A stretch of 64,000 nucleotides of DNA from Panicum virgatum. Its lineage: Eukaryota > Streptophyta > Magnoliopsida > Poales > Poaceae. The DNA lies in contig NC_053150.1 of NCBI RefSeq assembly GCF_016808335.1, forward strand, positions 49,634,848 through 49,698,847. Reading direction: 5' to 3'. Position 1 is the stretch's first letter, and each line of letters starts with the position of its first letter. Position numbers and translations under genes: made by a program. This document shows positions 1 to 29,856 of this stretch, one piece after another. The notes beneath the pieces are model-generated. The model was not told where the DNA came from and did no database searches. It saw only the letters and a program-made list of their open reading frames with translations.

Positions 1-351
1 GAGCCTGCAAAACGCATCCACAGACACCTCCCCTCCGAAACTACGCACTACCCACAGAAACTTGGACAGTATAACAATCCCGTTCGGAGTGAAATGGTGC
101 AACTTCGCGTTGAATGGCTCCAAAAGCTTCGGCACAATTGGATCCATCGGAAGCCTAAGTCCCGCTGTAAAAAAATCCTTAAATACTACAACCTCGCCGG
201 TCTCCGGTACAGGAATCAATTCTGCCCCCGGAGGGCGGCAAACCCCCTCGGCGAAGTAGCCCTTCATAACGTAGAAGTCTATCATGCTCTGTGATACGAC
301 AGATGGCTCGAAAAGCAGAGTCTTACGTTTCTCTGGAGCCATCAGATCCGA

Positions 352-2038: not shown

Positions 2039-2040
2039 AT

Positions 2041-2053
2041 CTCCCCCTTTTTG
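2041..2053 (-). other. Polypurine tract of the Sirevirus, with extra PPT-like copies at 2277-2340
   Basis: The minus strand reads CAAAAAGGGGGAG just before the 3' LTR. Three more GGGGGAG-type runs occur within 2277-2340 (two TTAGGGGGAG motifs and one AAAGGGGGAG). Multiple PPT-like motifs upstream of the 3' LTR are typical of Sireviruses. Confidence 0.8.
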
Positions 2054-2462
2054 GTGATTGATGACAACACAAACATAAATAACGAGAGAGCGAGAAAGAT
2101 AAAGCAGGATAAACACAAGCAAACTCGAAAGCAGGACCAAAGAGCTCAACGGCTCAAACGAAATCCATAGATATGTCTCAAAGAACGGCATACTCAAGCG
2201 ACAAATGTACATATCCATGAATTAACACCAAATGAGATACAAAGAATCAAAGTCCTGATAACTACGAGCTCTCTCTAGCTCTGCCCTCCCCCTAACTCTG
2301 GTGCTCCCCCTAACACCTCTCCCCCTTTGGCATCAAAGCACCAAAAGGCGAGCTACGGGTCGTGCTGTCGTGGTATGGCGACGAAGCGGTCCGGGTCGTC
2401 GTCGTCGGACGGAGAACTCTCACCCTCGGTGACAGACGGAAGCTGCTGGTCTGGGTCTGAGC

Positions 2463-4904: not shown

Positions 4905-5387
4905 CTTGACTGACGGTGTGCGGAACACGAACGCGGCGCGAAAGCAACGGCTCAGGCAAAACGTCGAGCACCTGGCGAGCACTGGGTGAAAAGGTGCTGC
5001 GGATGTGGCTGCGGCGCGGGGCTGCGGCTCTGAGCACGAGGATGGCGTGGAGTACGGCGGCGCTTGGCGAGGGAGACTCGTGCGGCGGTGAGGGCGTGGT
5101 GCGGCGGCGGCGGCGGCTACGCGTGCAGGCGGCGGCGCAGAGCTGTTGTGCGGGCGGCGCAGAGCTGTTGCGTGGGCGGCGCAGAGGAGAAGGGCTGCTG
5201 CGCGGTGGCGAGATGTGGCGGTTGAGGCGATGCGCAGGTGGCGGCGCAGTGGGACGGCGGCAGCGGCGCGAGCGGCGGCGCGTGGAGGCTTGAGTCGGGC
5301 GGCGGCGGCGTGAAGGGAGAAAAAGAAGCAGAGACCGGCTGAGCGGGCAAGACACATATATGACAGGTGGGCCCGCGATTTTCTTCA

Positions 5388-5710
5388 ACACCGGTTGATC
5401 CGACGCGTAGGGTTTGAACGCCGGTTGATTGCGTCGGTGTAGTTCACTCGAGACTCTACCAGATCCGTTTTTGAACGCCGGTTGAACCGATGCTGTCAAA
5501 AATGAACTCGTCGGTTGATTGATCAAAACACCGGTTGATTGCTAGGTCTGATTTGCATTTATGATCACCGGTTGATCCGATGCTTTGACTTTTGTATACG
5601 CCGGTTGAACGCCTGAAACTTGACTGAGCTGAGACAAACTTTAGTAACGCCGGTTAATCCGATGGGTATAAATCCTTTGAACGTCGGTTTAACCGGTGAA
5701 GCCAAAAACC
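5388..5710. repeat. Second array of CACCGGTTGAWCCGATG motifs, outside the LTR
   Basis: About eight copies of (CA)CCGGTTGATCCGACG-like motifs lie between the env-like ORF and pol. Some are followed by an inverted CGTCGGTT partner (e.g. near 5431 and 5510). One copy near 5682 (GTCGGTTTAACCGGTGAAG) is nearly the LTR form. The motif is the same family as in the LTR arrays but has mutated consistently to GGTTGATC/GGTTGAAC, so this internal array evolves on its own. Confidence 0.75.
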
Positions 5711-6333
5711 CCTCACTCAGCTCACTCTTCTATGCTAAGTCCAATAAACTTATAAGATTCAAATAAACTCAAGTTAATGGACTTGCATAGGCGACTTTAC
5801 CCCTCAAAATAAATAGGATAGCACACTTGCTTAAATAATTTTCTTTTCAAACAAAAAGGAAAGGCCGCAAGAGAGACAAAGCGCCAAATAAAATGTATGA
5901 GCCATGTCATAGGAATATTGAAGATAGAAAGCTTCAAACTCATCATGACATTGCTCACTAGGCAATAACGCACCTAACACTTTGCTCTTTTCACTTTTCA
6001 TGAATTAAGATCTTGTATATGAAACAAGTCTCATTTTCATCAAGTGATCTCCTTTGTGACCCTTACGCATGCAATGATGATGCAAACTACAACCACATGC
6101 GAAAGTAAAGTAAACATGAAGTGCACATCTATATGACAAGAAATGCATAACAAGAAATTAAGATCTACTTGTCAAGTTTGAACCCACGGGAAGCTTCTTC
6201 ATGATGAGCCTTTCTACAAGCCTAGAGGAAAACAAGTGGACCACCACCTCTAGCTAAACCCTTGCTCATCACTATCTTACCATGGTTAGACAAGTGTCCT
6301 ATATGTATGCATTTTTCTATATGACATGGCAAT
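5711..6333. other. Sirevirus spacer between pol and env-like ORF, no gene seen
   Basis: AT-rich, stop-rich on both strands, without conserved protein sequence. In Sireviruses the env-like ORF is thought to be expressed from a spliced transcript; the acceptor would have to lie between here and 4904, but I cannot choose one with confidence. Confidence 0.5.
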
Positions 6334-9300
6334 TTACATGACATTTGCCGCATCTAACACATTAAGCTCATTCCTTAGCCTAACAAAGGTACTCTCGTCT
6401 AATGGTTTTGTGAATATATCCGCCAATTGCTCCTCGGATCTCACACCTTGAAGGGAAATGTCCCCCTTGGCTTCGTGATCACGTAAGAAGTGATGGCGAA
6501 TATCAATGTGCTTAGTGCGAGAGTGTTGAACCGGATTCTTGGCAATTTTTACGGCACTTTCATTGTCACAAAGGAGTGGGATCCTATCTAGTTTCACACC
6601 AAAGTCCAAAAGGGTTTGCTTCATATATAGGATTTGGGCACAACATGCACCGGCCGCTATATATTCCGCTTCCGCGGTGGACAAAGCCACGGAATTTTGC
6701 TTCTTACTTGACCAAGAAACTAGAGAACACCCAAGCAAGTGGCAACCCCCGGAGGTACTCTTGCGATCCACACGGCTTCCGGCAAAATCCGAATCCGAGT
6801 ATCCCAAGAGATCTAAACTAGCGCCTTTGGGGTACCACAAGCCTATGCTAGGAGTGTGCTTGAGATACCGAAGGATCCTATTCACAGCCGAAAGGTGTGA
6901 CTCCTTTGGGTTAGCTTGAAAGCGGGCACATAAGCACACACTAAACATTATATCGGGCCTAGATGCGGTAAGGTAAAGCAAAGACCCTATCATAGAACGA
7001 TAGAGGGATTGATCAATTGGTTTACCGTCCACATCCAAGTCGAGATGCCCATTGGTTGCCATGGGTGTCTTGATTGGCTTGCACTCATCCATCTTGAACT
7101 TTTTCAAGATATCTTTAGTATATTTTTCTTGATGGATGAATGTCCCTTCCTTCATTTGTTTGACTTGAAAACCAAGGAAGAAGGTCAATTCGCCAATCAT
7201 GGACATCTCGAATTCCCTAGACATCATGGTAGCAAACTCATGGCTTAGTAAATCATTAGTTGAGCCAAAGATAATATCGTCAACATAAATTTGACAAATG
7301 AAAAGATCCCCGTTGACGTCTTTTGTGAACAACGTGGTGTCCACCCTCCCGATCTTGAAGCCTTGCATGATTAGGAAGTCACGAAGCCTCTCATACCAAG
7401 CCCTTGGAGCTTGTTTGAGCCCATAGAGTGCCTTGTGCAACCTATAAACATGGTTAGGATTCCTCGGATCTTCAAACCCGGGAGGTTGCTCAACCTAAAC
7501 AAGTTCGTTAATAACGCCATTTAAGAATGCACTTTTCACATCCATTTGATACAACTTAATGTTATGATGTGAAGAGTAAGCAAGAAGGATACGGATAGCT
7601 TCAAGTCTTGCGACCGGAGCAAAAGTTTCACCAAAATCCAAACCTTCGACTTGAGAGAACCCTTTTGCCACAAGTCTTGCTTTGTTGCGTATCACCACCC
7701 CATGTTCATCTTGCTTGTTTCGAAAGACCCACTTGGTGCCGATGATGTTCTTGTCTTTCGGAGGAGCTTCGAGGACCCAAACTTCATTGCGGGTGAAGTT
7801 GTTCAACTCATCTTGCATGGCCATCACCCAATCCGAGTCCTCAAGCGCTTCCTCTACGCTAGTGGGTTCAATACAAGAAACAAACGAGTGATATTCGCAA
7901 AATGAAGCATGTTTAGAGCGAGTTCTTACTCCCTTTGATGGACTACCAATGATTTGACCAATTGGATGATCCTTGGAGATGCGACCATGCTTCACTAGCG
8001 GTACTTGCGTGGATGCTTGTTGGGGTGGATCATGGGTGACTTGTGCTTGTGGTGGTACACTTTGCTCTTCTTGTTCTTGAACTTGGGGTGTTGGCGTTGG
8101 CACACCTTCTTGAGGTTGTGTATCATCTTTCTCTTGATCTTCATCCACTTGGGGCGCCGTGGAGGTGCTTGGAGTAGATGAGGAAGGTCCTCCCCCTTGA
8201 TCATTGTCTTCATGCACCTCTTCCGGCTTGATATCCCCAATGGACATATTCTTCAAGGCTTCATCAATCTCTTCATTACCTACATTTTCATAGCCAACAA
8301 CCTCCTCTTGGGAGCCATTAGATTCATCAAACTCCACATCACATGTTTCTTCAACTAACCCGGAGGTTTGATTGAATACTCTATATGCTTTGGAGTTTGA
8401 TGCATAACCAAGAAAGAAACCTTCATCACATCTACTTTCAAACTTACCGAGCCTTTTCTTCTTATAGATGAAGCATTTGCAACCAAAGACTCGAAAGTAG
8501 GATATATTTGGTTTCTTCCCGGTGATGAGCTCATATGGAGTTTTCTTGAGGAGTCGGTGGGGATACACTCGGTTGGATGCATGACACGCCGTGTTGATTG
8601 CTTCCGCCCAAAACTTCTCGGACGTGCCATAATCATCCAACATTGCTCTAGCTAGGGTGATGAGTGTCTTGTTCTTTCTTTCCACCACTCCATTTTGTTG
8701 AGGCGTGTAGGTGGCGGAAAACTCATGCTTGATGCCCTCTTCATCGCACCATTCTTCAATTTTCATGTTCTTGAACTCGGTGCCGTTGTCACTCCGGATC
8801 TTCACAATTGGGGAGTTGTACTCCCTTTGAGCTCTTCTTGCAAATGTCTTGAAGAGTTCCGGAGTTTCTCCCTTATCGCCTAGAAACATAACCCAAGTGT
8901 AACGTGAAAAATCATCAACGATTACTAGGCAATAGAGGTTACCACCAATGCTTTTGTATGTAGTTGGACCAAAGAGATCCATGTGTAGTAGCTCGAGCGG
9001 CTTGGAGGTAGACAACATCGTCTTGATGGGATGATGTGTTGCAACTTGCTTCCCGGCTTGACATGCTTTACATAGCTTGTTCTTGTCAAAGGTGACGTCC
9101 TTCAAGCCGGTGATCATCCCTCTCTTGTGGGCTTTCTTGAGGTTGCTCATGCCAATATGAGCAATTCTTCTATGCCAAAGCCATCCAAGAGAAGACTTGG
9201 TGAAGAGGCATGTCATGGTGCTTGTTTGCTTTGAAGAGAAGTCCACTAAATAGATGTTGCCATGCCTAAACCCCGTGAACACCAAAGACTTGTCTTTTTC

Positions 9301-9600
9301 ATGAGTTACTACAACACCATTCTTGTCAAAGGTACACGTTAGTCCAAGATCACACAATTGAGCAATAGAAATGAGATTAAAACTAAGTGCTTCTACAAAC
9401 AAAACATTAGAAATAGATAAATCTTTAGAGATAGCTATTCTACCCAAACCTAAAACCTTTCCCCTTGAGTTATCACCATAGGTGACATGTTCATGATCGC
9501 CGGGGTCTTCAAGGGAGGTGAACATGCTATCATTGCCGGTCATATGTTGAGAGCAACCGCTATCAAGTACCCAATGTTTTCCACCGGCTTTGTAGTTCAC
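6334..9600 (-). pseudogene. pol: Sirevirus pol (protease, integrase, reverse transcriptase, RNase H), one nonsense codon
   Basis: Reading frame 9600-6334 with a single in-frame TAG at 7497-7495, between ...GVINELV and VEQPPGF in the reverse transcriptase, where other copia pols have Tyr. Order: protease [11 protein letters not shown] at the very start; zinc-binding pre-integrase region (HRRIAHIG...CKACQAGKQ); integrase core with [23 protein letters not shown] and [11 protein letters not shown] (DDE residues present); Ser/Thr/Gln-rich linker; reverse transcriptase with [18 protein letters not shown]; RNase H with GYSDSDFAG, RKSTSGG, SSKKQNSVALSTAEAEY and KHIDIRHHFLRDH. The frame opens at a stop at 9603 and has no suitable ATG. 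It is in the +1 frame relative to gag, which ends 17 nt before, so it needs frameshifting or another route. Apart from the TAG it looks intact. Confidence 0.93.
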
Positions 9601-9616
9601 CTACACACATGAGAAT

Positions 9617-11719
9617 TCACTTTTGAGTTTTAGGAACCCAAACAAGCTTTGGGCCTTGCACATGTGTGACAAGAGCTTTTGGGACCCAAAGTTGCTTGGG
9701 GAGCTTCTTCTTTGACTCCTTAGTGAGTTTGCCAATGAATTTGGCCTTCACCTTGCCCTTCACTTTACTCAAGAGAAAATGGTTATTTTCAAACATTGAA
9801 GAGTAATTCTTGGGTAATTTAGGAAGAGGACATGATGGTAAAGTGCACTCCCTAGTGTGGTGCCCGGTGACTTGGCAATGTTGGCAATATGATCCAACTT
9901 CCTTGATGAAGCTAATCTTGATCTCCGGAGAAGGAGTAGTAGCTATGTTTGGCTCCGGAAATGAACCAAGACCTCTCTTGCCATAGTCACGGGCATTGTT
10001 GAAGAGAATCTCCTTGTGGATGTATTCTCCTCTTGAGAGCTTCTCCACACTACTCTTGAGGCTTGCAACTTGATCCATCAATTCCTTTTCCCTAGAAGGT
10101 GCAAGCTCGGACAAAGCATTAGTAGCATTTGCATTAATGAGTAGGTCATCACATGAAGTAGAAGCATTGACCTTCTCAATAGTTTCATGAGCAAAGTTCT
10201 CAAGACTTGGGTCAATTGCTTCATAGGCAAATTCAAGTTCTTGATACTTGTGAGCCAACTCCCTATGCTCTTGTTTAAGCTTTTTGTGGCTCTCTTCAAC
10301 TTGCTTAGCAAGTACAAGTGACTCATTGTGCTTTTTGAGCAAGTCATTGTACTTGCCAAGCAAATCGGAGTGGGCAAGCTCTAACTTGGCACGAGTGCTC
10401 TCAAGAACCTTGACTTTGCCCTTTTCCCTCTTGATGACGGATGTATACTCATTAATAAGATTAGCAAACTCATTAGGGTCAAGCTCATCATCACTATCAT
10501 CTTCACTCTCACATACCTTAGAGTTACCTTTGGCCATGAGGCACATTGGAGGTGGAGGTAGTGATGGTTCTTCATTTGTGAGGGCGATGGTGACTATGTC
10601 TTCTTTATCACTTGAATCTTCGCTTGATGAGACATCCGTCACCCACTCTTGTTTTTCCACCAAGAAGCTTCTCTTGGTGTGCCCTTTCTTCTTTGGGAAG
10701 AGCTTGGTCTTCTTGTCATGGCTCTTTTTCTTCCCAAGTCTCTTGTTTTTGTTCTTCCTTTCTTCTTCTTCATCATCGCTTGAATCATGGCGATGCTTGC
10801 TCTTGTGATCCTTGTTTCTTTTGTCCGGCTTGGGGCAATTTGGACGGATGTGACCTTTTTCTCCACAATTGTAGCAAATTTTGTTCTTGACATCCATTGG
10901 CCGGAACATTCCCTTTTTAGAGTCAAAGTTGAACCCCTTCTTGTTGATCTTGTCATTCAAGCGGGTGAACTTTCTCATCATAAGAGCGAGCTCTCCATCA
11001 TCTTCAACATCGGATGAGCTTTCATGATGATCATCTTCTTCATTGCTTGAGCTTGAATCTTGCTTGATCATCTTGAGCTTGCGGGCTTTGTTTGCCTTGG
11101 TCTTTAGAGCAATTGATTTGCTTGAAGTTGGCTCTTCGGACATACCAAGGATACTTATCTCATGAGCACGAATTTCGCCCACAAGTTCTCCTACTTCCAT
11201 TGTGTCAAGATTCTCCTTTTGAAGCATAGCATTGATAATGTTATACTTGGGCTTCGGGAGGAGCATGAGAATCTTGCGATTGATGGAGGCACTGTCAATT
11301 TTGGATATTTCAAGTGCATTAATGTCCTTGACAATGACATTCAAGCGAGAGTACATATCATTGCAATTTTCATGAGCTAGCATTTTAAAAGAATCATACT
11401 TAGCTCTAAACAAGTGATATTTTTGCTCACGAACTTTAGTGGAGCCTTCATGAATTTCAATGAGCTCCTTCCAAATATCACTTGCTAAGTCCATGCCATT
11501 AACTCTAGCAAAGACTTCCTCACTAATGGCTTCGAAAATTGCATTTCTAGCCTTGGCATTCCATTTTAATTGTTCGGCGGTGGGAGTTCCGGTGAATCCG
11601 GTCTTAGTGGCCAACCACACTTCGGGGGCAATCGCATCAAGATATGCGGCCATGCGAACTTTCCAATAAGCAAAGTTCTTGCCCTCGAAGTGGGGCGGCG
11701 AACCACCCATCTTGGCCAT
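9617..11719 (-). CDS. gag: Sirevirus gag
   Basis: 700 residues from ATG 11719 (MAKMGGSPPHFEGKNFAYWK). N-terminal copia gag domain (UBN2-like; YWKVRMAAYL, DIWKELIEIHEGS). Zinc knuckle CYNCGEKGHIRPNC near residue 280, followed by Lys/Ser/Asp-rich low complexity. A long coiled coil lies around residues 430-510 (many Glu/Lys/Leu). Near residue 625 is a second Cys/His cluster CQHCQVTGHHTREC, a further CCHC-type knuckle. Long gags with a coiled-coil C-terminal half are characteristic of Sireviruses; the smaller copia gags lack it. The ORF is complete and ends in TGA at 9619-9617. Confidence 0.93.
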   Translation of the reverse strand: MAKMGGSPPHFEGKNFAYWKVRMAAYLDAIAPEVWLATKTGFTGTPTAEQLKWNAKARNAIFEAISEEVFARVNGMDLASDIWKELIEIHEGSTKVREQKYHLFRAKYDSFKMLAHENCNDMYSRLNVIVKDINALEISKIDSASINRKILMLLPKPKYNIINAMLQKENLDTMEVGELVGEIRAHEISILGMSEEPTSSKSIALKTKANKARKLKMIKQDSSSSNEEDDHHESSSDVEDDGELALMMRKFTRLNDKINKKGFNFDSKKGMFRPMDVKNKICYNCGEKGHIRPNCPKPDKRNKDHKSKHRHDSSDDEEEERKNKNKRLGKKKSHDKKTKLFPKKKGHTKRSFLVEKQEWVTDVSSSEDSSDKEDIVTIALTNEEPSLPPPPMCLMAKGNSKVCESEDDSDDELDPNEFANLINEYTSVIKREKGKVKVLESTRAKLELAHSDLLGKYNDLLKKHNESLVLAKQVEESHKKLKQEHRELAHKYQELEFAYEAIDPSLENFAHETIEKVNASTSCDDLLINANATNALSELAPSREKELMDQVASLKSSVEKLSRGEYIHKEILFNNARDYGKRGLGSFPEPNIATTPSPEIKISFIKEVGSYCQHCQVTGHHTRECTLPSCPLPKLPKNYSSMFENNHFLLSKVKGKVKAKFIGKLTKESKKKLPKQLWVPKALVTHVQGPKLVWVPKTQK

Positions 11720-11760
11720 AGCTCTAGGCGGTGAAGCCTAATGATCCAAATGAGCAACGA

Positions 11761-11773
11761 GGCTCTGATACCA
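11761..11773 (-). other. Primer binding site, initiator Met tRNA type
   Basis: The minus strand reads TGGTATCAGAGCC, the standard copia primer site complementary to the 3' end of initiator tRNA-Met, 2 bp inside the 5' LTR. Confidence 0.95.
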
Positions 11774-11775
11774 AT

Positions 11776-13463
11776 TGTAAGGATCGATGGACCAAGAGGG
11801 GGGGGTGAATTGGGCCTTTTTCAATTTCTAAAACAAAGTAAGGCAACCTTAACCTATGCAAAGCTAGTAGGGCACCAATTCACCAACCGGATAACTAAGC
11901 TACCTACACAAGCTAAGAGAGATAAAAACAAAGTAAAGCCTAGCAAGGTAGAGCTAAGTTATGATCTCTAAGTCAAGCTCATGAATAAATTGCATGAAAG
12001 AAAATGCTTGAATATAAAGAGTGGACAAGAGACAACCGGATTTTTTCCGTGGTATCGATGTGTTGGCACACACCCCTAATCCACGTTGTGACACTCTCAA
12101 AGAGTCTTGTCACCTCCCAAGTCACCGAGACGAGGGCGCTCACTAAGAGTCTCCGTTCACCATCCCGGCGTGGTGGAGATCAAGCCACGTACAATCTTCT
12201 TCTCCGGGCTCCCACAATCCTTGGCAAGCTCCGCGAGAAAACACCTCGATCACCAAGATCGCCTAGGTGATGCCAATCACCAAGAGTAACAAGCTAAGGC
12301 CTTCACTTGAGCAAGAACCGATCACCAAGAACGGATGCACACTAGCTTCTCTCTACTCAAGTCCTTAATCTTGCTTCTTGATTGATTGAATGCACAAGTA
12401 TGTGAATGATGAAGCTCAAGGTGGCTCTTGACTATGGTATGAGTGTTTGGATGTTGCCTGGTGTCAAGAGTGGGCGAAATGACCCATTGGAGGGGTATAT
12501 ATAGGCAGCTCACACAAATAGAGCCGTTGGAGAAAAGCTGCCAGAAAACTGCGTATCGCCGGTTAATCCGACGTTCCCCCCATTGTCATCGTCGGTTTAA
12601 CCGGTGAATGTAAACTGCCTCTTCTGAAAACTAGCCGTTACAACTGGGGCAGATTAACCGACGTTCCATCGGTTTAACCGGTGAGTGTAGTTGTCCACTG
12701 AACCATTGAAAAACCAAGTCTCTGGACAACTGCACCGACGTTAACTCAAACCTATCGTCGGTTTAACCGGTGAGTACAACTTTTAAATTCCTCTGAAAAA
12801 CCATCTCACTGGTCAATTGCACCGACGTCTTGATTCAAACAGCGTCGGTTAATCCGGTGAATAGAACTTGAATTTCCCTGGAAAAACCAACTCTGGACCA
12901 ATGCACCGACGTTAAATTCAAACACGTCGGTTTAACCGGTGTATTGAATTTGTCCAGACTCTGCTGACTTCGTTTAACCAACGTATAGAAAATTGAGAGC
13001 GTCGGTTAAACCGGTGTATAGACTTTTTCTGATTTTGTCTTTTCTGATTTGAGTCTTGAGTGAAATCCAAATATTCTTGAGATATAGTTTGAGAACCACT
13101 TATTTGAACTTCTAGAAACCTGAGTGACCATAGTGTGCATCCATTTTCAAATGACCATGTCCATGCTCAAGTTACTAAGCCTTAACCCCTCTTAATAGTG
13201 CGATCACTACAAAACTATAAAACCTATACTAACCTAAGTGTCCTTCTCAACCTTGTGACACTTAGGACTAGAAAGATCCTTAGCCTTGACATATATATAA
13301 GTTGAAAACCGAGATCGCCTTTTAGAATAACCGAAATTGAGGGGCCTCTTTTGACATATGACCAAATGAGCGATAATGATCTATTAAGCTACACAAACTC
13401 ATTAGTCACAATAATGGTTGTCATTAATCACCGAAACATACCTTGAGGGCCTAGATGCTTACA
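11776..13463 (-). repeat. 5' LTR of the Sirevirus
   Basis: 1,688 bp direct copy of 352-2038. The minus strand has CTATATATACC near 12495-12505, the likely promoter TATA box, with the remaining ~700 bp of LTR downstream. The LTR end at 11776 lies 2 bp from the primer binding site. The hairpin motif array is at 12553-13024. Confidence 0.95.
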
Positions 13464-13687
13464 TCCGACACGTTCGCAGAAACAGCCGAGAGGCTTTCGC
13501 TGGACCGCTGCTGCTGAGAAGGCTGCGAACCACCCGCCTCTCCTTCGGAAGCTGCACCAGAGTCTGTACGGAGAACTGCCCTCTTAATAAATGCCATAAC
13601 TACAAAAGTAAACAAAAAAAAAACAGTCAAATCACAAACAAAAAAGCGAACCTTCGATCAGCCTCGCTGTCTGTTTAGTACGAGCCA

Positions 13688-14048
13688 TGAGCTGTAGTTA
13701 CTTACACCGAGGAAAACAAGCAGATTCACCACGCACAAGAACCTTCGGACAAAACGCTTTATAGCAAAAAGCGACGAAGGATAGCAAAGCTCGAAAGGGC
13801 ACAGGTTCTACCCCCCCTCTCCTCCGCTTATATAGATGGTGAAAAGGAACAGTTCCAGCGGTAAAAACGAGGAGACCCCAGCCCAAACGGCGCAATCAGG
13901 CAACGACACGTACACAACAAAAACCAACGGTTGCAGCCGACGGTTCGGGAGACGTTTTTCCTCGGGAGCTTCCCGAAGGTTACACGCAATCTTCTTCATT
14001 AACAAGGGTTCAGACCGTCGGCTTCGGACCTCGCCCTCGAGGGGCTAC
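13688..14048 (-). other. Leader and promoter region of the antisense gene; PPT of the Tat element
   Basis: This stretch between the antisense start codon and the 3' LTR has no conserved coding sequence that I recognise on either strand. It holds the antisense TATA box and, at its right end (about 14036-14048), the purine-rich tract CGAGGGGCTAC directly before the LTR, which fits the plus-strand priming site of the element. Confidence 0.55.
13826..13836 (-). promoter_or_regulatory. TATA box for the antisense gene of the Tat element
   Basis: The minus strand reads CTATATAAGCGG here, about 140 nt upstream of the antisense start codon at 13688 and about 215 bp inside the element from the 3' LTR. 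A TATATAA box at this distance from an ATG is usual for plant genes and supports real antisense transcription. No transcript evidence is available here. Confidence 0.55.
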
Positions 14049-14779
14049 TGTTGGGGATTGGACCTTCGGGTGAAGCCCTCACCCTCGGAAATGCTCCCTA
14101 ACCTGTTTGTAGGGCTATAACGAAATAGAGCTAAGCGCACCCGAAAGTATCGGATGAACGCTGAGAGGCGCAAGCTTGAAGACCATAACCTTCGGTCCGA
14201 AGGATATCACCTTCCGAAGTCCAAAGGTAACGGATAGCTACCCTGAAGCGAAAGCACAAGCTCCAAGACCTTCGGTCCGAAGGATTTAGTCTCCACCGCG
14301 CCGAAGGTGACGAACGTCCACCCGGAAGCGTAAACTCGAAGTTTGAGACCTTCGGGAGAAGAGCCCGCGACCGGGAACGGTGACAACTGAATGGTTGATG
14401 GGACCTTCAAGACCCAAGCTCCCGGAGGTACCCGAAGGTTTTGGTGACCTTCGTCGACTGAAGACGCGTGAGTAAAACGTGAGTATGTAAGAGGGTCGGA
14501 GTTGTGCACCCTCCAAATGCGTGAGGAGGTCGGATTTGTAAACCTCTCATCTTGTAATTTTACCCCGGAACCGGCCAAGAGTGAGCTGTAAATGAGTTGG
14601 GAGGGAGCAATTTAGTAAAACCTGGCCGAGGGCTAGGGGTATAAATAGCCCCCTCTCTCCACAGTGTGAGGGGTTCAATTTTCTGACTATTATTAGAGAG
14701 CTCGGTATTTACTTTCATTGCCACCTTTCTTATTGTTCATGCTCCCTGTTTGGGCATCTACAAAGCAAAGATCCCAACA
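14049..14779 (+). repeat. 3' LTR of the Tat-type gypsy element
   Basis: 731 bp, TG...CA, with inverted termini TGTTGGG / CCCAACA. TATAAATAG at 14640-14648 is the likely promoter, followed by GC-rich leader and a T-rich region. The left half contains three degenerate subrepeats of about 80 bp; the first two each carry the perfect palindrome CCTTCGGTCCGAAGG (14189-14203 and 14269-14283). Read on the minus strand, the last LTR bases supply a stop codon to the adjoining DUF594 gene. Confidence 0.85.
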
Positions 14780-17161
14780 TACATTAGCAGCAGGACATGG
14801 GTGATGAATTCACCGCCAGTGCTGAGATGCTGGCTGTGGAAAGCACCACCGCAGCGAGGCGCGACGAAGAAAAGCATCTCCAGCCACACAGCGGTGATGA
14901 GCTCCCAGCATTCATCTTCCTGGATAGCGATGAGCTCTTGGGCTACCTCACACGCGCGATTGGTCACTGCAGAATCCAGATCCTCGTATGTGCTTTGCAG
15001 AAGTTGCATATGAGCTGTCGGTTGTTGGCCGCTGCTGCCCTGGGGAAGAGCCACCGCTTCGGCTGGTCCACCGCCATGGACATTTTTCCCTGCTTTGAGG
15101 AGTTCCTCGTTCTCCATTACCACTCTTCCCCCAAGTCCATCCATAAGATGATTAAAGGCGAGCAACGGGTCCATTCCACTGCCTGTCTGTTTCCAGACCT
15201 GGAATACCATCCGGGCAGGGTTCCCCTCATGGGCCACACCTGATAGGTTACGGACCTTTTTTGCTTCCTCCAGTTCGCCGTGAGCTTTGCGATGTAAGAG
15301 CTGTGAATTGGTCTTGAGCATCACCCCGCACTTGAAGACGAGGTACATGATATAATTCGACACCTCTCTGCACATCCTCTTCTTCCCCTTCATATCAGGA
15401 CTGCTGCTGGACTGGGTGCATCCTTCATAGTAGCAGATATCTGTTGCCATGTGCCAGATGAGCACGCTCGTCTGGAAATCCATGGCGGCGTCGATGCTCC
15501 GGTGTAGCGCCGCCGTCCCTGGACGAGCAGAGGCCGAGTCTCTATGGTTGCCCGCCCACTTCTGGAGGGCCAGCAGACCACCGGTGCTGGCAAAGTTCCA
15601 ATCTTGCTGCCCGCCTGCTCCCAAGTCTAACAGCTTGTCTAGAACCAACTCCTTGAGATCCCCGGGGAGGGCGATGCGCGTCACATCGAGTGCCTGGACA
15701 CCACAGGCTTTGAGGGGCTTCTCTATCCATCTTCGTAGCACGGACCCCGCCGTTCCTTGAGCAGCAGAAGCATCGTCTTCCGCGGCAGCATGTTGCCCGA
15801 ACATGTTATACTGAGCTAGCTTCTCGGACCACTCGGCCCTGCTAGCCAAATGCAAATTTACATCACCATCCGTGGTTTCTCTCATACAGTCAGAAAACGA
15901 GATGAAGGCAGACGACACATCCAGGGCGACGGCTCCTGCCAGCAGGATGTAGGACACCACGACATCAGCTCTGCTGTAGGCTCGCAGCCCGCCGCCCTTG
16001 TCGGTGGCCACGAAGAGCGCCAGAGCGATCGGAGTGGGCAAGGTTGAGAAATACAGGACGGGTACGAGGAGCGCTACTAGTGTCAGGGTGACAAGACACC
16101 GGACATTGTTGAGCATACACCCATGGTCTTCAGCGTCAGGACTGCACGAGCATGCGTAGTCGAGCAGAAACCGCTGGCGGAGGTGGCTGAGAGGCTTTTT
16201 GGTGTAGAGGTCTTGGTAGAAGGGTACCAAGCGTTCGGCGACGTAGCCGTAGGCCTTGGAGCTGCGGCCTTCCCTGCGCCTGTACTGCTCGTGCAACTGT
16301 GGGATGATGTCCGACTCCGCGCATACCACAGTTGACAGGTCGTTGAGTGGAGCGTCCACGGACATGACGGGGTGGACATCGGAGCCGATGTCCAGCAGGC
16401 TGCCCTTTTCCTCCGGACCGGACCCAGAGTGGGCATTGAGCATGCGATCGAACCTTCTTCTCAGCCGCTCCCCTGCAAGTTCTGTTAAGTCCGAGCTATA
16501 GCCGCGGCGATCGACGCCTGCTGCGCCTGGGTTTCTACTACTACTACGCCGCTCAACTCTGCTGCTACGGTGCTGCTGTAGCACGAACGACATGCTGCCG
16601 AGGGAGTGGTCCCTGCGCTTCGCCGGGCTCGCAAGGTAGAGGCAGAGGGTGCGCTCGGCGTACTTGACGCAGCCGCTGAGGAACATGAGCACCATGGCTG
16701 CAAGCAGCCGCCCGTCCGACAAGGACGACTTGGAGACGACGTAGCCGGCCAGCGCCACCTGGGTGACGAGGCCCAGCAGGTGGCGCCCCCACAGCTCGTT
16801 GTCCTGCATGGAGAAGGCCGTGATGCTGCTCTGCCCGCCCAGGTGGACCAGCACGAACGGAGCCCAGAACGGCATCAGCTCGTGCCGCGGCCTGCTCGTG
16901 CAGCCGGACACCGCTAGATGGCCGAGCACGAAGACGGCCACAAGGTCGGCCGACACGTAGGCAAGCCACAGGAGCGAGTGGAGTACGCGCGACGCGCTGC
17001 GCGCTCCGGATGCCCGCTGCGAGGAAGAGGAAGACTTGCAAGGCCAAGCTTAGGAGGACCAGGCAGTGGATCTCCCATTCGTCCCACAGTTGTTCCACAG
17101 ACGCCAGACTCTTGAGTGCACTGATAATATTATATAATATATATATAAGCAACAAAGCCAT
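14758..17161 (-). pseudogene. DUF4220/DUF594 membrane protein gene, copy 1 (frameshifted, 3' end replaced by LTR)
   Basis: Single-exon plant gene of a large grass family, function unknown. It likely starts at ATG 17161, then LWDEWEIHCLVLLSLALQVFLF, the usual N-terminal membrane segment of DUF4220 proteins. Relative to copy 2, an extra base near 17005 in GCGCGCTCC (copy 2: GCGTCTCC) shifts the frame at about residue 60. The correct frame then stays open from 16956 for 732 residues. That part has several hydrophobic helices (FWAPFVLVHLGG, VSYILLAGAVALDVSSAF), the DUF4220 body, and at the C-terminus the DUF594 block (YIMYLVFKCGVML, NRACEVAQELIAI, WLEMLFFVAPRCGG, GGEFITHVLLLMY). The last five codons and the stop come from the gypsy LTR. 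An internal start at 16956 could still give a shortened protein. Confidence 0.85.
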
Positions 17162-17700
17162 GATTCATATATTTTTCAGATTTCATTCCAGTTTGCTGTT
17201 TATCTGTGCACAGATTCTTTTCTGAGAAAAAAACCATCTAATTGTTTGATGTTGCAAACATTATTCTTTGATGCTTCTAATCATTTCATGATTTTAGTGG
17301 ACGAAATATATATGACAGATTTTCTCATGTTACAAATGCTAGCATTATTGCTCTCGTATGTTTCATAATACTTCACGTTGCGGTAGAATAACACCCTGCT
17401 ACATTGGAGACAAACATATGCAAAATCATAAAATTCAACGGAATTTTACACAGTACCAAATTTGCAAAACCACCACAGGGGCCAAATTTGCCCGGTTTTG
17501 ACAGTTGGATGGCCTATGTTGTCCGGTTTCGTAAGTTAAAGGTTGAAAATCGGACTTTTGCGATATTTGGAGGGTGTAAACCGGATTTTTCCCTAATAAT
17601 AAATATGTAAATAATAACATAGATTGACAATCTTAGACTGATGTTTTTATTAGATTCATCATGTAAAATGCTTTTATATTTTTTTAGTTCGATACACCAT
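17162..17700. other. 5' flank of DUF594 copy 1, no gene
   Basis: AT-rich. A short (TA)n tract lies just downstream of the presumed start codon (17128-17151 region). 17440-17600 (GGCCAAATTTGCCCGG, GTGTAAACCGGATTTTTCCC) looks like a dispersed grass repeat, but I cannot name its family. Confidence 0.4.
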
Positions 17701-18687
17701 ATTTCGCTACTAATACAGTCGAGATTTTGGGAGGATACTTGGGTGGGCCAAAAGCCATTTAGAGAACAGTATCTATCAATTTACAACATAGCTCGCCAAC
17801 CACATACATCAGTAGCGAGTGTGTTAAGTTCAGAACCCCTAAACATTTCATTTAGAAGGGCATTGGTTGATGAAAAACTCTTAGAATGGCTTGATTTGGT
17901 AGCTAAGATAACCAACATCAATTTAGTTGAAGGGAGTGATCACTTTAGATGGAATTTACATAAATTCGGGGTCTTTACAGTTAGATCTATGTACCTCCAC
18001 AAGATGAACCAAAATGCTCCCTTTCGCCACAAATTGATTTGGAAACTAAAAATTCCTCTTAAGATAAAGATTTTCCTTTGGTTTTTCCAAAAAGGAGTTA
18101 TCCTAACAAAAGATAATCTAGCGAGAAAGAATTGGAAGGGGAGTTTGAAGTGTTGCTTCTGTAATTGTAATGAATCAATTACACATCTCCTCTTTGACTG
18201 TCACCATGCAAAGGAGATTTGGAAGATAGTCTATTTAGCTACAGGGTTAACCCCGCCAAGATCGATTTCCCATATGCTAGGAAATTGGCTCTCAAATTTT
18301 GATAACAACGAGAGGCGTGTCGTTTTGGTGGGGGCAGCTGCATTGTGTTGGGCTATTTGGAGGTGCCGTAATGATATTATTTTTAACAAAACCAAGTATT
18401 CATCATTTATGCAGGTTGTTTTCAAGGGAACCTACTGGTTGCACTTATGGGCGCAACTGCAACATAAAGATATGATAAAGATGATGTTCCGAAAGGCAAG
18501 TCTTGCATTGGAGGTCGTCGCCTTGGAGATAGCCAATTATGGGTGGAAGCATAACCTTAGAATTGGTTTAGATGATTTTCCCTTTGCTCATTCCCCAAGC
18601 TAGCCAATAGACGACTATATTTTGTAATAATCTTTGGGCTGTGTACACTTTGTAGAGGCCGGAACTCGTTTTCATTATCTAAAAAAA
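17700..18687 (+). mobile_element. 5'-truncated LINE (L1-type), 3' end with zinc-binding RT domain, copy 1
   Basis: The reading frame to 18603 encodes the C-terminal part of a plant LINE ORF2 downstream of the reverse transcriptase: SRFWEDTWVGQKPFREQY, then the zf-RVT domain (WKLKIPLKIKIFLWFFQKGVILTKDNLARKNW...CCFC...THLLFDCHHAKEIW). The 3' UTR ends in GAGGCCGGAACTCG...ATCTAAAAAAA at 18687, the usual LINE tail. The frame is open and nearly identical in the second unit, but the endonuclease and reverse transcriptase core are missing. The exact 5' break (about 17700) is uncertain. Confidence 0.85.
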
Positions 18688-20170
18688 TATTTCACACAAA
18701 CTCTTAGTAGTCAAAATGACAACCACTGTTCTAAACGGTCTTATATTTTCTAGAGAAATGCCTATCTAAACTAGAAAAGGTATCGAATTACACCGGTTGA
18801 AAGCGGCGCTCATGAGTATACATCATTCTTTTCTGTAATAATAAAAGTGAACACAATAAGCTAGTATACATCATTACCTTTGGCTGTTCACCAGACTTTC
18901 GCTGCCATGTTCCTCGCGATTTCTAGTCGGCCTCATCTTTGAATTGGTGGAGACATGCAAGCAAACCACATCGCAAGCCTCGCTGCAAGGGTTCTAAATA
19001 GCAAGTTTCGGGGTGAGAGAATAGATGCTTGCTTAAATGAAGAGCGAGAGTAGGCATCTATCCCAATACATCGATTAATATATGATTTGAATAATCTCAA
19101 ACTCTGTTAGCTACATATATGTTGCCATAACCTGACATATAAACAAAATGAAATTGACTTTTGGTGTGCGAGGTTTGGAGTATAACCTATGGATACGCAT
19201 GCATGCAGCTGGTCATCTGTGTTTGTACAATGTTTCAAACAAAAGTTTTTATAACAATATGGATGCCAGCATTGGTCTTATCCATTTTATTTGTCCGATG
19301 ATGGAGGGCAGAAAAGAATATTCTTTTCTGATGTTGCATTAAACAAGCAAGGTTGATTATTCCCGGCCCTTCGCTTGCCATGAGATATACTACTGATCTT
19401 GTCTGAACCGTCCTATGATGGAGGGAAGAAAAGAATATTCTTTTCTGATGTTGCATTAAACAAGCAAGGCTGATTATTCCCGGCCCTTCGCTTTCCATAA
19501 GAGATACTACTGCTGATCTTGTTTGAACCTTTTTTAGAAACCTACTGCTCCCTCCATCTTAAAAAAACAAGTCATCCTACGAATTCTAGAATAACTTTTA
19601 AAAAAAAAGATAAAATGACCATATTTGTCTATATTTACTATTTATATTTGGCACTAATTAATTTATTATCTTATTATTTGGCCAACAAACAGAGCCTCCA
19701 CGTTCGCTCTCAAGGTCTAGAAATTACTATGTTAATAGGAGAAAATAGAAAAATAAAAATTACCCACCACTGCCATTATAATAAAAATTAGCCTAAAATA
19801 CTCATACGCCTAATTAAAAATTACCCACCAATGCCATTATGAAAAATTAAATATAAAATACCATTTAGCAATGTATCAGTTACAAACATATTATTAATAA
19901 AAATTAAAGCTAACAACAATCAATCAACATAAAAAGAAAATAAAAATAATTATATGCATAATATTATTAAAGCTCAACAAATTAAATTGTTATTATAGGT
20001 AGATCATATTTGAATTGTTTTAATTAATAATAAAACATAATTTACGATAATAAACAAGGTGATGCATGGTAACAAATAGTATAATTTTTAAAAAATAGTA
20101 AGAATACAACGATATATAATTTTTTTAATTTTCAATACTAGCCGCCCAAATGCGCGGGTCATACGCCTAG
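18688..20170. other. AT-rich spacer with a 117 bp tandem duplication
   Basis: No gene seen. At 19298-19414 and 19415-19528 a 117 bp unit (starting ATGATGGAGGG) is duplicated in tandem with about 90 percent identity. A Stowaway-like end (CTCCCTCCATCTTAAAAAA) lies near 19547 without a clear partner. 19560-20140 is very AT-rich and ends in the Helitron-like terminus at 20170. Confidence 0.6.
20140..20170 (+). mobile_element. Helitron-like 3' terminus, unit 1
   Basis: CCGCCCAAATGCGCGGG (hairpin; perfect CCGCGCAAATGCGCGG in unit 2), then nine bases, CTAG, and a T. A 16-20 bp hairpin shortly before CTRR with a following T is the canonical Helitron 3' end. I did not find the matching 5' TC end, so element length is unknown. 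Confidence 0.5.
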
Positions 20171-20635
20171 TTCTTCTATGTCAGCCGTGCTGGCTGGACC
20201 AGCCTCCCTCCTCGTCTTCGGCAAGGGAGGGCATCCGGTCGTACCGGGAACGACGGCCACCGGCTTCTAGCAGAATCCGATGTACGCCGAATCTATCCCT
20301 TCCTTTACGCACGCCGAGAAGCGCATATACTGCTGTGTCTGCAGACCCGTAGTAAGGGCGTCTGCAGTGCGCCAGCGATTTGCGCCGGCGATTTGAAGGA
20401 GAGAAAGGGACGGCAGACGCTCGGGACTCACACGCGTGAGAGGGAGCTCTCTCGGCGAGCGTGCGAGCTAGCGACGAATTCGTCGCTAGCGACTACTGTG
20501 CAGCCACTATTCATCGATTAGAAAAATGAAATCGCCGGCCATCTCGTCGACCGTTGCAGACGTCCTAAACACCTTTGGGTCGCCGTTTCAGCTTGTCTGC
20601 GCTACTTTACGGTAAACAACTCTTGTGTTACTTCG
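20171..20635. other. GC-rich low-copy stretch, no recognised gene
   Basis: It follows the Helitron-like end. In unit 2 (51431-51634) a 67-codon frame is open; in unit 1 it is disrupted by a deletion of about 31 bp. I do not recognise the product. A palindrome GCTAGCGACGAATTCGTCGCTAGC lies at about 20469-20492 (absent from unit 2, which has a ~90 bp deletion here). Confidence 0.35.
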
Positions 20636-20745
20636 CGAGACGAATCTAATGATATCTTTGAACGCGTAATTAGATGATGGTTATTGTAGCATTACTGTAG
20701 CCAATCATCAATTAATTGCCGTCATTAGATTCGTCGCGAAAAATT
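20632..20745. mobile_element. Foldback MITE, unit 1
   Basis: CGCGAGACGAATCTAATGA on the left and TCATTAGATTCGTCGCG on the right are inverted copies around a loop containing ATTGTAGCATTACTGTAGCCAATCATC-type sequence, common in grass MITEs. Unit 2 (51808-51893) keeps the left arm only. Confidence 0.55.
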
Positions 20746-20920
20746 ACACACATCTCTAAAGAGGTTTTGCAAATAAACTTTATTTAGTACTTCATGCGGA
20801 GCCTAGAAGACGTATTCTAGGAATCATAGAATGCCACATGGCAAAGTTCAGATGGAAAACCGCGTCGGCTGACAGTTCTGCTACAACGTCACACGCAGCC
20901 ATCAGATACCTTATAAGAAC

Positions 20921-21158
20921 TTAGGCTGTGTTTAGTTCGCGAAATTTTTTGGGTTTGTGTACTGTAACACTTTCGTTGTTATTTGGTAATTAATGTCCAA
21001 TCATAGGCTAATTAGGCTTAAAAGATTCGTCTCGTCATTTACAGTTGAACTATGTAATTAGTTATATTTTTCAACTGTATTTAATACTCCATGCATGTAT
21101 TCAAAAATTCGATGTGACGGATACTGTTTGAAAATTTTTGGAACTAAACAGGACCTTA
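20921..21158. mobile_element. MITE with GTTTAGTTC / GAACTAAAC ends, unit 1
   Basis: Left end TTAGGCTGTGTTTAGTTC and right end GAACTAAACAGGACCTTA are imperfect inverted repeats. The interior (AGATTCGTCTCGT, CATGCATGTATTCAAAAATTCGATGTGACGG region) matches a very common grass MITE type. Copy at 52052-52285. Confidence 0.65.
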
Positions 21159-21398
21159 GCAGTACTACGATCGAAGGGGTTACATCTACTGTCAACAACA
21201 GAACAACTGTCAACAACGGGCAACAGAACTGAGGGGCAAAGTTAGACGCGCGCAAGCTCTCTGCATCTCTGGGCCTCTACGCAGCATCGTGAGCGCGATG
21301 GAGCTGAAGCCTGATGAAGCAATAGCTCGTACCCGAGACAAGCGGTGGCGCGCAACTAAAGCGAGGCAAAAAGAGTGCCCGGCGAAGCTGGATCATGT

Positions 21399-21819
21399 GA
21401 TTCTGTTCTGTATTTGATTATTCTACCGCAGAGATCATGCCAATCATCATGATCATGTGAACTCATTTCTGTGCATACATTGGTTTGGCGCATTTCCCTC
21501 ATGCTTTAGGGTCCGAAGCTGGATTGGATGGTAGCAGAAGATGAAGAAGAGGCACAATCAAAGTTCGCTTTTAAAGCAGCTTGAAATTTGCTTCACCTCA
21601 CCTAGTGTATGGGTTTGCAATGCCCCGACCGAGGCAACACCTTTTGACTTTCCAAGGATGTGAGTAGTAGTATGAACACGGAACGGACAGTAGGCTGCAT
21701 GCTGTAAATATGAAGGCTATGTAACTGCGAGCTGGCAGAATTTGCCCAGCAGCGACCTTTGCTGGAGAATGCACCTAGCGATGTTTCCCTCCTGGAAGGT
21801 TTGATCTTTGTTCAAACAT
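21399..21819 (+). pseudogene. Stray last exon and 3' UTR of the YrdC/YciO-like gene, unit 1
   Basis: It matches 39029-39487 of the intact gene: end of the last intron, acceptor TTTAG, the last exon 21510-21584 (GPKLDWMVAEDEEEAQSKFAFKAA, stop) and 3' UTR. It has lost one codon in the Glu run relative to the intact gene and to unit 2. No other YrdC exon is nearby, so this is a fragment carried by an internal duplication of the YrdC 3' region. Confidence 0.85.
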
Positions 21820-21833
21820 GCAAATCCATCCTG

Positions 21834-23351
21834 TTTTTTTTTTGTGGAAATGAGAACATTTTATTAATTTCAAGAAGTTACATCGAGTGGATACAACGCC
21901 TTGAAACCGTTCCCGGCCTCTGTTCATTGGGCACACAGCCTACTAGATTTTAGGTTTAACAGACACATTAATGACTTTCGATCCTGAGACTAGAACGTCA
22001 CCCATGTACCTAACTTCACCCATGTGCCTAGGTAAAAAAATCCTTTGCCACCCGCTCCAACCACCGAGAGGCCGCAACAAGCGCCTCCTGGGAAGTAGCA
22101 TGTTGTAGGGTAGCCCATGTACGAAGCCAGTGCATTGTCCTGTAAATAATATGCAAAAAATTAGATTGTTTGTTTTCAAATACAGTGTCATTCCTGCAGA
22201 GCCAGACAGACCAGCACATGGCTGCCGCTCCCACCATGATGAGTGATTTATGATGTTTTAAAATTCCATTCAGCCAGCTCCCGAACATGTTGGATATACT
22301 TGTGGGTTGGCGGAGACCCCATGCCATGTATACTGTGGCCCAAGCCATTCGCGCAAAACGATAGTATAGAAACAGATGCTGAATCGTTTTATTTTCATGA
22401 CAGAAGCAGCATTGTTGATTATCCTGCCAGTTCCTTTTCGCCAAGTTATCCTTTGTGAGGATGATGCCGCACCTAATGTACCAGATGAATATCTTAATTT
22501 TTAATGGTAGTTTCAGCTTCCATAGTTTCTTGTTGACATTGAGAACGTTCTGACTTATTAATCCCCAGTAATGTGACTTTACTGAGAAGACACATGCGGG
22601 GTCAAGATTCCATCTAAACTCATCCTCATCGTGGCTGAGTGTGATGGGAGCCAGTCGGGCTGCTAGGTTATTCCACATTGCTAGTTTATTTTCGATGAGA
22701 TCCATACGCCAAGATAGATTGGGTGTTGACGCTGAAAGTACTTGACCCATCGTATCATGTTTTCTCCTTGCAATATTATATAATTGCGGGTATTGTTATC
22801 TCAACGGTGTGTTACCTAGCTAAATGTCTTCCCAAAATCTAACTTGTGACCCATTCTTTATAACAAAGGTCCTGAACCGGAGGAACTCACCTTTTGCTTT
22901 CATCAAGCTTGCCCAGAAATGAGAGTCACCGCTTTTCCATTGGAGTTGAACCAACGGTTTAGTCCCTAGGTATTTGTTGCGTAGAATCTGCTGCCAAGTA
23001 CCATCTGTTGTCAACAGTCAGTATAGCCACTTGCTGAGCAATGCAATATTTTTAAGTTCGAGATTTTGTATCCCTAAACCTCCTTATTCTTTAGGTTGGC
23101 ACAGGATATCCCACTTTGCTAGCCGATATTTTCGTTTGTGCTCATCACTCTGCCAGAAGTACCGAGATCGGAAGTAATCCAACTTCTTGCGAACCCCTTT
23201 TGGAATCTTGAAGAAGGACATCATGTACGTCGGTAAGCTGCTAAGAACTAAGTTGATCAAGATTAGCCTCCCTCCCATGGAAAGGTTTTTCCCTTTCCAG
23301 CTACTAAGGTGCTTTTCAAAACATTCTTGTACTCTCAACCAATCATTGTTT
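21834..23351 (-). mobile_element. 5'-truncated LINE (L1-type) with 14 bp target duplication, unit 1
   Basis: Minus-strand LINE fragment. A T run at 21834-21843 is its poly(A) tail. Target duplications GCAAATCCATCCTG (21820-21833) and GCTAATCCATCCTG (23352-23365) flank it. The protein relics are the end of the reverse transcriptase region (SWKGKNLSMGGRLILINLVLSSLPTYMMSF) and the zf-RVT domain (LWKLKLPLKIKIFIWYIRCGIILTKDNLAKRNW, CCFC...LFLYYRFARMAW). Stops interrupt it at about 22818 (Trp to stop) and about 23087 (Gln to stop), which unit 2 lacks. The homologous YrdC 3' flank near 39488 is the empty site. Confidence 0.9.
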
Positions 23352-24400
23352 GCTAATCCATCCTGTGTCTGCTAAACATGCTAATTCGGGAGGCATACAC
23401 TGGTGAAGGAACGATGAAAATGGGCAAACGACTGAAAACCAGTGAGACGAGTTTAGAAAAGATTTCAAACTTGCATATCTATAGAGTATATTCAGAGATG
23501 TACTTTTGCTGCAAGAATGCACCCTCAAATTTATCATTGTTCATATGAGTTAGTCTAGAACAAGTTTGAACCTCAGCTGAAAGGATCCCGTCGCTGGTGT
23601 GATGTCAACACTCAACACACGCAACCATCCCTGACAACCTTGGCTGACACGGAGGTGGTTGCTTCGTTGCACCCGCCGCCGGACACAGGGGTGGTCGCCC
23701 AACGACCACGCCATGGGCTAGAGCGCCTCGCATCAGTCATCACTAACGCCGGCGGCGGATTGTATATCTATGGGAGCCGGCGCAGAGACGCCGGGACAGA
23801 ATAGAGGATTGGTCCTCCGATCATCTGAACTCGGAAGAGATTCATGCGGCCGCCGCCGCCGGCGGCTGCCTAGCTTGTCGTTCGATGCCACGGCTCTCCG
23901 GGCGGAGCCCGGACTCCGGAGCACACCGAGCGGCGAACCGTGGAGGGGAACGGCAAGCGATCGAGCAACAGTCCCTGCGAGGGTGGGAAGGGTCTCCGAT
24001 CGTTGCCATGGAGCACCCCACTGGTCCCGTTGGCACCTCCAGTTACTGGCAATCTGGCCGCACTCGGGGAACACTGGGACGCGCTCGCTCCTCGGCGCGG
24101 CACGCCTGATCGCCACGGATGACGCCGGGCGTCGCGCTGTCGGCAAACCGACGATCCTAAGATCAGGAACGCGAGATCCACAATACTGTCTAGCTGGGTG
24201 CCTCCCTGAGCAATCCAAACCGTGCGCTCACGTCGGTGAGGCCGTCCCCAGCTTGCGACGCAGTCCGTTACTTACTGTCCACCACCCGGCACCGGCGAGC
24301 GAGACCATGACCGCCGCCGTGGCCATCTCGACCCCACCTTGATACGCGTGAATGGCAGCGAGAGTTCCATCACTGATCAGGCATGGGCACTCCTGACTAG
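23352..24400. other. Copy of the YrdC downstream region, no gene
   Basis: Continues the homology with 39500-39886 and 44661-45000 (AAAGGATCCCGTCGC, CCATGGGCTAGAGCGCCTC, CACTAACGCCGG, GATTCATGCGGCCGCC). GC-rich, with long open frames in several phases on both strands as expected from base composition. None resembles a known protein. Confidence 0.6.
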
Positions 24401-26556: not shown

Positions 26557-26569
26557 AACGTCCACCGGG

Positions 26570-26857
26570 CCAAAGGACCTCTAGCTGACTTGTTTAGGGG
26601 AACCCAGCGGCACTCCTCAGATTTTGGGATCGACTCCTCATGGGAGCGAATTTCAGGTTGAGGTTAAAAAAATCCCCTCGCCTGTCTCATGTCCAAAGCA
26701 TTGTGGAGCCCGGCCTAACTCACAAGGCGACGGACCCCCGTGTACGGGTGGGGCAGGGGTTCGGGGGTTTTCTTGGCCTGCTGTGAGAAGGTCATTCTAC
26801 CTCTCAAAAACAATACCGTGGGGGCGGTCTTACCCCCGCAGGTCAAGTTTTTTTTTT
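26570..26857 (+). mobile_element. tRNA-derived SINE with 13 bp target duplication, unit 1
   Basis: 288 bp ending in a T run (26848-26857), flanked by exact 13 bp repeats AACGTCCACCGGG (26557-26569 and 26858-26870). An A-box-like CTAGCTGACTTGTTTAGG lies near 26581 and a B-box-like GGATCGACTCC at 26627-26637, spaced as in tRNA-derived RNA polymerase III promoters. The body (GGTTCGGGGGTTTTCTTGG, GGTCTTACCCCCGCAGGTC) is a common grass repeat. Confidence 0.8.
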
Positions 26858-26870
26858 AACGTCCACCGGG

Positions 26871-28425: not shown

Positions 28426-28463
28426 GTGTCCTCCCGGCCGCCGGCTCCGGCGAGCGGTGGCCC

Positions 28464-29762: not shown

Positions 29763-29856
29763 GATATAAAAATAACAATTTTGTTATTTTTATATCTCAC
29801 AAACGAAGTCGAGTTTGGACAAGATATTTTACAAAATTGTTTATCATCATATCATC
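29703..29856. mobile_element. Palindromic MITE, TA target site, unit 1
   Basis: 154 bp, almost one perfect inverted repeat: arms of about 73 bp (start GATGATATGATGATA, end TATCATCATATCATC) around AACAATTTTGTT. Flanked by TA on both sides, which fits a Tc1/mariner-type (Stowaway-like) insertion, though the ends are not the usual CTCCCTCC. It inserted in the zinc-knuckle codons of the gag-like frame. Copy at 60125-60278. Confidence 0.8.

Follow-up and report, generated by a model that had tools for sequence, protein, structure and literature searches.

The locus and its features

On the minus strand of the window, the whole 64,000-nucleotide stretch of Panicum virgatum DNA analysed here, an ATG at 13688 opens the frame MARTKQTARLIE, in which residues 1-9 equal the start of histone H3, MARTKQTAR. 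The minus strand from 13688 to 13652 reads ATGGCTCGTACTAAACAGACAGCGAGGCTGATCGAAG; the GT of an intron follows at 13651, its AG ends at 13600, and the downstream sequence TTATGGCATTT contains an ATG at 13597. When the predicted 52-nt GT-AG intron is removed, the joined frame continues as VMAFIKRAVLR into a TRP28 (PF04195; Transposase_28) protein. An earlier note on this DNA had described the ATG, the intron, the in-frame TRP28 protein and the nine-residue identity, and the sequence bears out each of them, the splicing of exon 1 to exon 2 being a prediction. The main features are:

1..346, minus strand: remainder of exon 2 past the copia insertion (TRP28 region), which leaves the window; PF04195 is matched by the homologous second exon of locus L006
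352-13463, minus strand: copia element inside exon 2, with LTRs at 352-2038 and 11776-13463 and TCCGA duplicated at 347-351 and 13464-13468
13464..13599, minus strand: first part of exon 2, with the second in-frame ATG at 13597 (MAFIKRAVLR...), interrupted by copia
13600..13651, minus strand: predicted 52-nt GT-AG intron; from sequence reading and splice sites kept among copies
13652..13688, minus strand: exon 1, coding MARTKQTARLIE and the first base of a split codon; from sequence reading and purifying selection
13700..13707, minus strand: conserved GTGTAAGT, a strong candidate 5'UTR donor about 17-20 nt before the tail ATG
13827..13834, minus strand: TATATAAG, putative TATA box for the antisense gene (-158), in a low-diversity stretch
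14049..14779, no strand assigned: 731-bp repeat at the end of the host element, TGTTGGG...CCCAACA; the terminus is common to copies and the flanks differ

Since exon 2 is interrupted at 13464 by the copia element, which the earlier note does not mention, the TRP28 part falls in 346-1 and runs past the window edge. In locus L006 the homologous second exon matches Transposase_28 at 2.6e-10 (40.8 bits against a cut-off of 26.2). The two copia LTRs are near-identical, with two mismatches and one gap in 1688 positions, and the element is flanked by the 5-bp TCCGA duplication. Because this young element sits in exon 2, the gene copy in the window is dead. A back-translation of MARTKQTAR matches the window once and none of 100 shuffled windows, and the tail recurs in related copies, so that chance at the level of the single window is ruled out.

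The remainder of the window has features of its own. The copia element at 352-13463 carries gag, pol and, downstream of pol, a sense ORF of 964 aa (2463-5357), which resembles Transposase_32 weakly (30.3 bits, under the cut-off of 45). A second copia element at 40005-44366 has an open gag-pol frame of 1224 aa. A direct duplication, 14780-33000 and 46883-63000, has a spacing of about 30-32 kb and an identity of 95-100% in most among the 20 repeat families listed; the retroelement LTR adjoins one of its copies at 14780. Each copy contains an inverted repeat with 86-nt arms, 2 nt apart and 91% complementary (29693-29866 and 60115-60288), which makes a hairpin and is perhaps a MITE.

The host element

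Similarity between the window and 78 of 90 other copies starts at 14776-14784 on the minus strand, in 59 of them exactly at 14779, and the 8 bases outside the TGTTGGG terminus are of 81 kinds among 84 copies. Among 83 copies, a few of whose edges are misplaced, 0 have a TGG primer site in the 6 nt next to the LTR inner edge, and no clear polypurine tract is seen at that edge, where the mean purine content is 0.47 over 15 nt. As a tRNA-primer site is missing from its inner edge, the 731-bp repeat is read as the 3' LTR, with the sense strand of the element as the plus strand. The TRP28 gene would then be antisense to the element, an orientation that we infer from the LTR edge and from the literature on Retand elements, pol lying outside the window. 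Retand elements are described as carrying antisense TRP28 genes in the available part of PMC11963269. The host element is probably a Ty3/gypsy element of the Retand type, and the tail exon the first coding exon of its accessory TRP28 gene.

Copies of the tail in the genome

In the whole genome searched (1.13 Gb), the back-translated tail has 144 exact matches, and the reversed pattern used as a control has none. Eight of the 144 sites were inspected: seven look like element copies, and one (L004) is a true H3 gene, which runs on as KSTGGK after the tail. One of the seven, L008 (G000:C1:48412349-48415374), belongs to a divergent subfamily that reads MARTKQTARLIG and differs at the start of exon 2.

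A second sample was located through the beginning of exon 2, so that the tail played no part in the choice; it gave 209 places, with 0 in the control. The 91 copies analysed (90 and the window) are those most similar to the window where exon 2 begins, among the best 100 of the 209, and are therefore biased to window-like copies. MARTKQTAR is exact in 60 of these 91 and the full MARTKQTARLIE in 57, while K4 is present in 82. Silent variants occur between copies at R2, K4, Q5, A7 and L9 (H3 numbering). With foreign stretches masked, divergence among copies with an exact tail reaches 27% in exon 2 and, upstream, 25%, the latter value replacing 44% from unmasked sequence. In 14 of the 91 copies the exon-2 frame stays open throughout the sequence examined. 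Six exact-tail copies (L026-L030 and L093), each with 960-1095 bases masked as foreign, lie within 155 kb at G000:C8 3459090-3613192. Four of them have one common 8-nt flank, and the cluster is a local amplification.

Exon 1 is recognisable in 89 copies, and among these the GT of the intron is kept in 87 and the AG in 88. The intron varies from 39 to 63 nt between copies, with differences in frame, and is short by plant standards.

Selection on exon 1 and exon 2

A tree from which exon 1 was left out served for parsimony counts of the changes; foreign stretches were masked, and expected values were taken from the noncoding spectrum. In codons 2-9, the internal branches have 2 amino-acid changes (15.0 expected) and 12 silent changes (4.9 expected), and the terminal branches look neutral, with 39 amino-acid changes (42.8 expected) and 14 silent (15.0 expected), giving p=8.5e-5. 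The two internal amino-acid changes are K4R and A7T. At T3, Q5 and R8 together there are no internal amino-acid changes (5.9 expected) and 3 silent ones, the difference between internal and terminal branches having p=0.062. Codons 10-12 (L-I-E), which have no counterpart in H3, likewise show 0 internal amino-acid changes (4.4 expected) and 3 silent, so that the constraint extends beyond the H3-like residues. Shifted frames across exon 1 carry no signal, with 12 amino-acid to 5 silent changes in one and 16 to 1 in the other (unmasked data). Without masking, the tail itself gives 5 amino-acid changes to 19-20 silent on a tree of upstream DNA alone and 2 to 13 on a tree of exon 2 alone.

The deficit of amino-acid changes on internal branches, together with the loss of signal in shifted frames, indicates that the tail is translated and kept by purifying selection. 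As judged from this pattern of changes, exon 1 is protein-coding and is selected during the activity of the element, and copies drift after insertion. The ratio of amino-acid to silent changes in exon 2 is 0.13-0.18 on internal branches and 0.49-0.60 on terminal branches; the low internal value points to selection on the whole protein. After masking, the constraint on the tail is not significantly tighter than that on exon 2 (p=0.12, 0.17). The tighter constraint given by unmasked data (p 0.0037-0.0073) was an artefact of foreign sequence in exon 2, namely the copia insertion in the window and alien segments of other copies; masking removed it.

The tail motif in related proteins

Three protein searches gave at least 202 related database proteins, two of the lists being the best 120 of 128 and the best 120 of 674. 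The motif pattern is matched near the N-terminus in 33 of the 202 proteins listed, which represent 22 distinct tail types. The tails include MARLKETAKLIE, MARIKQTASLIE, MARVKITAKEI and MARLKVTARPI, which define a wider motif, MAR-x-K-x-TA; further types are MARLKETAKLI, MARVKETAKLV, MARIKQTASLI and MARVKQTAKDI. Similar tails are present in the Panicum miliaceum records P0016, P0044 and P0137, and in P0192 a homologous N-terminus, MARLKETAKLIEG, lies in one continuous frame with the rest of the protein. Fifty-eight relatives extend into the segment that precedes the domain; 21 of them have the tail pattern, 25 have MTTEEL- or MTSEEL-like starts and a predicted protein without the tail, and 12 are different or too short. 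In P0012, P0015, P0018, P0028 and P0070 the frame extends upstream of a MARxKx-like start, and the upstream residues resemble a translated pyrimidine-rich intron end, perhaps with an acceptor before the start.

Among the 22 types, the numbers identical to H3 at positions A1 to R8 are 20, 20, 1, 15, 3, 19, 20 and 5. Position 4 is Lys in 15, Arg in 5, Glu in 1 and Asn in 1. None of the types has the exact H3 nine-mer, positions 3, 5 and 8 being variable. The column frequencies, derived from proteins that the motif pattern itself had selected, give an exact nine-mer a chance of 4.6e-4 per type, or about 1% over 23 types. On the sequences compared, the exact MARTKQTAR is one lineage's form of the older MAR-x-K-x-TA motif. 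The H3 identity thus lies at one extreme of the tails seen in relatives and is not a foreign insert.

In the AlphaFold model of the relative P0008, whose mean pLDDT is 79.8, the core is ordered and residues 1-18 fall below a pLDDT of 50. If these residues are disordered, as the model makes probable, the tail would be free for binding. The TRP28 fold has no PDB match in a structure search, and no relatives of P0008 were found among viral contigs.

These results bear in different ways on what the earlier note had proposed. The conservation of the tail with synonymous changes, which it named as a sign of selection, is present in the exact copies, the silent variants and the internal branches. The contrary case it had described, of relatives without the motif and translation from 13597, disagrees with the retention of the nine-mer and splice sites among the copies, as it does with the protein-level selection on exon 1 and the continuous N-terminal frame of P0192. 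Its argument that a nine-residue match at a start codon must exceed chance has lost force, because relatives carry MAR-x-K-x-TA tails, from which the exact match has the chance of about 1% given above and in which position 4 is not fixed. The decoy or anti-silencing role that it considered possible is a hypothesis.

Candidate promoter and possible isoforms

Over the 185 nt that precede the ATG, diversity is lowest in two regions, the candidate TATA box (-158) and GTGTAAGT (-21). The donor in GTGTAAGT (GTAAGT), which we take from the usual consensus to be a strong one and which looks stronger than the donor of exon 1, is kept among the 91 copies at G in 90, T in 91, A in 91, A in 87, G in 88 and T in 90. 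Splicing from this donor to the exon-2 acceptor could skip the tail exon and leave translation to start at MAFIKR, and two isoforms, tailed and tail-less, seem likely. The tail exon might even be mostly intronic and the tail a minor or alternative isoform, which would be compatible with any of the meanings of the H3 identity considered below. The conserved donor, the exon-2 ATG retained in the anchor sequence, and an acceptor that, by eye in translations, seems to lie just before the start codon in several relatives agree with such a predominance of the skipped form. However, the amino-acid selection on exon 1 requires that the tailed isoform is made and is important, and both isoforms may exist; a mostly intronic tail is a credible minority view.

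Meaning of the histone H3 identity

The preferred account of the tail protein, to which we give a probability of roughly 0.8 as a whole, together with the assignment of the host element and its accessory gene, is as follows. An internal promoter would drive an antisense transcript from the gene adjoining the 3' LTR, in which the 12-residue and TRP28 exons would be joined by splicing in vivo. The Met is probably removed, which would leave A-R-T-K-Q-T-A-R-L-I-E exposed as a flexible, basic N-terminus. The protein bearing it would be nuclear, would probably bind DNA and would serve the element as a regulator. Its tail derives from the family-wide MAR-x-K-x-TA motif, has become identical to H3 residues 1-8 in this lineage, and has since been kept so. 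The simplest reading is thus that the element encodes a regulator whose N-terminal motif is functional.

What this motif does is a separate matter. An ordinary basic N-terminus, serving in nuclear targeting or nucleic-acid contact and having reached the H3 sequence by drift within MAR-x-K-x-TA, has slightly better than even odds. The 22 family types, none of them exact and differing among themselves at positions 3, 5 and 8, speak for such drift; against it, the coincidence would be an improbable one of about 1%, and T3, Q5 and R8, once they had arisen, were held on internal branches. The latter residues are those that complete the match, and their conservation speaks for true mimicry, in which the Met-free tail would occupy readers or enzymes of the H3 N-terminus and so shield the element from silencing or recruit activators. 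Candidate partners for such a tail are PHD fingers, LSD1-like demethylases and H3K4 methyltransferases. The exact identity with H3 1-8 points the same way, as do the family-wide prevalence of A1, R2, K4, T6 and A7, the positions most shared with H3, and the disorder in the model of P0008. A precedent is GFI1, whose SNAG domain, according to the available part of PMC5896174, imitates the tail of H3 and blocks LSD1. Against mimicry, L-I-E, absent from H3, is kept as well, and the constraint on the tail is not significantly above that on the rest of the protein. Position 4 is Arg, Glu or Asn in 7 of the 22 types, the two internal changes in codons 2-9 are K4R and A7T, and the match was spotted after the fact. 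Given that an exact match is still a matter of about 1% within that pattern, mimicry is possible, though we consider it rather unlikely.

If the element had captured part of an H3 gene, the nine identical residues would be accounted for, but this is very improbable and was rejected. The relatives have graded variants of the tail, the codons agree with those of host H3 genes at 21-23 of 26, which 34-93% of random synonymous tails also reach, and the frame goes on as LIE and an intron, not as the KSTGGK of H3. A bolder form of the mimicry idea, about as unlikely as mimicry itself, is that Retand-type elements have long carried a ligand resembling the H3 N-terminus (A-R-x-K-x-T-A) on antisense TRP28, which in this lineage would have been perfected to H3 1-8 with Leu in the place of K9. 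The DNA-bound protein would then show a methylatable K4 without the silencing K9 and compete for or recruit H3 readers, with the tail-less isoform acting as a switch. If true, a retrotransposon protein would be imitating a histone tail. The role of the Retand antisense TRP28 genes is not yet known, according to the available part of PMC11963269, and a conserved N-terminal motif that is disordered in a model and equal to H3 in one lineage makes a possible action of TRP28 on host chromatin sharply and cheaply testable.

Comparison with known systems

As far as the available parts of the sources describe them, the antisense TRP28 ORFs of Retand (PMC11963269) and the genes of Grande (gene23) and RIRE2 (PMC7264820) have the same PF04195 domain. 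DNA binding is predicted for the TRP28 proteins of Retand (PMC11963269), and the Grande gene23 protein is nuclear and has its own promoter (PMC7264820). Like the Retand and Grande genes, the present gene lies beside the putative 3' LTR, runs antisense to the presumed strand of the element and has a candidate, promoter-like TATA box upstream. The words histone and intron have no occurrence in the main text of PMC11963269 or PMC7264820. Unlike the Retand and Grande genes, in so far as their sources cover them, the gene described here has a separate 12-residue first exon and a tail identical with that of H3.

VANDAL elements are of another type, and their VANC is another protein. If the tail counters silencing, the VANC proteins, which the element encodes and which act against silencing by the host, would be its functional analogue; the available parts of the VANC sources (PMC5735166, PMC10398659) do not mention an H3-like tail. 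No description of a retrotransposon protein with an H3-like tail was found in the available parts of the open-licence literature, subscription journals being mostly outside its coverage. In the SNAG domains of GFI1 and SNAI1, which act at LSD1 (PMC5896174, available part), the binding has been shown experimentally, whereas for the TRP28 tail the likeness is one of sequence; in both, a short H3-like peptide is placed at the N-terminus of a regulatory protein.
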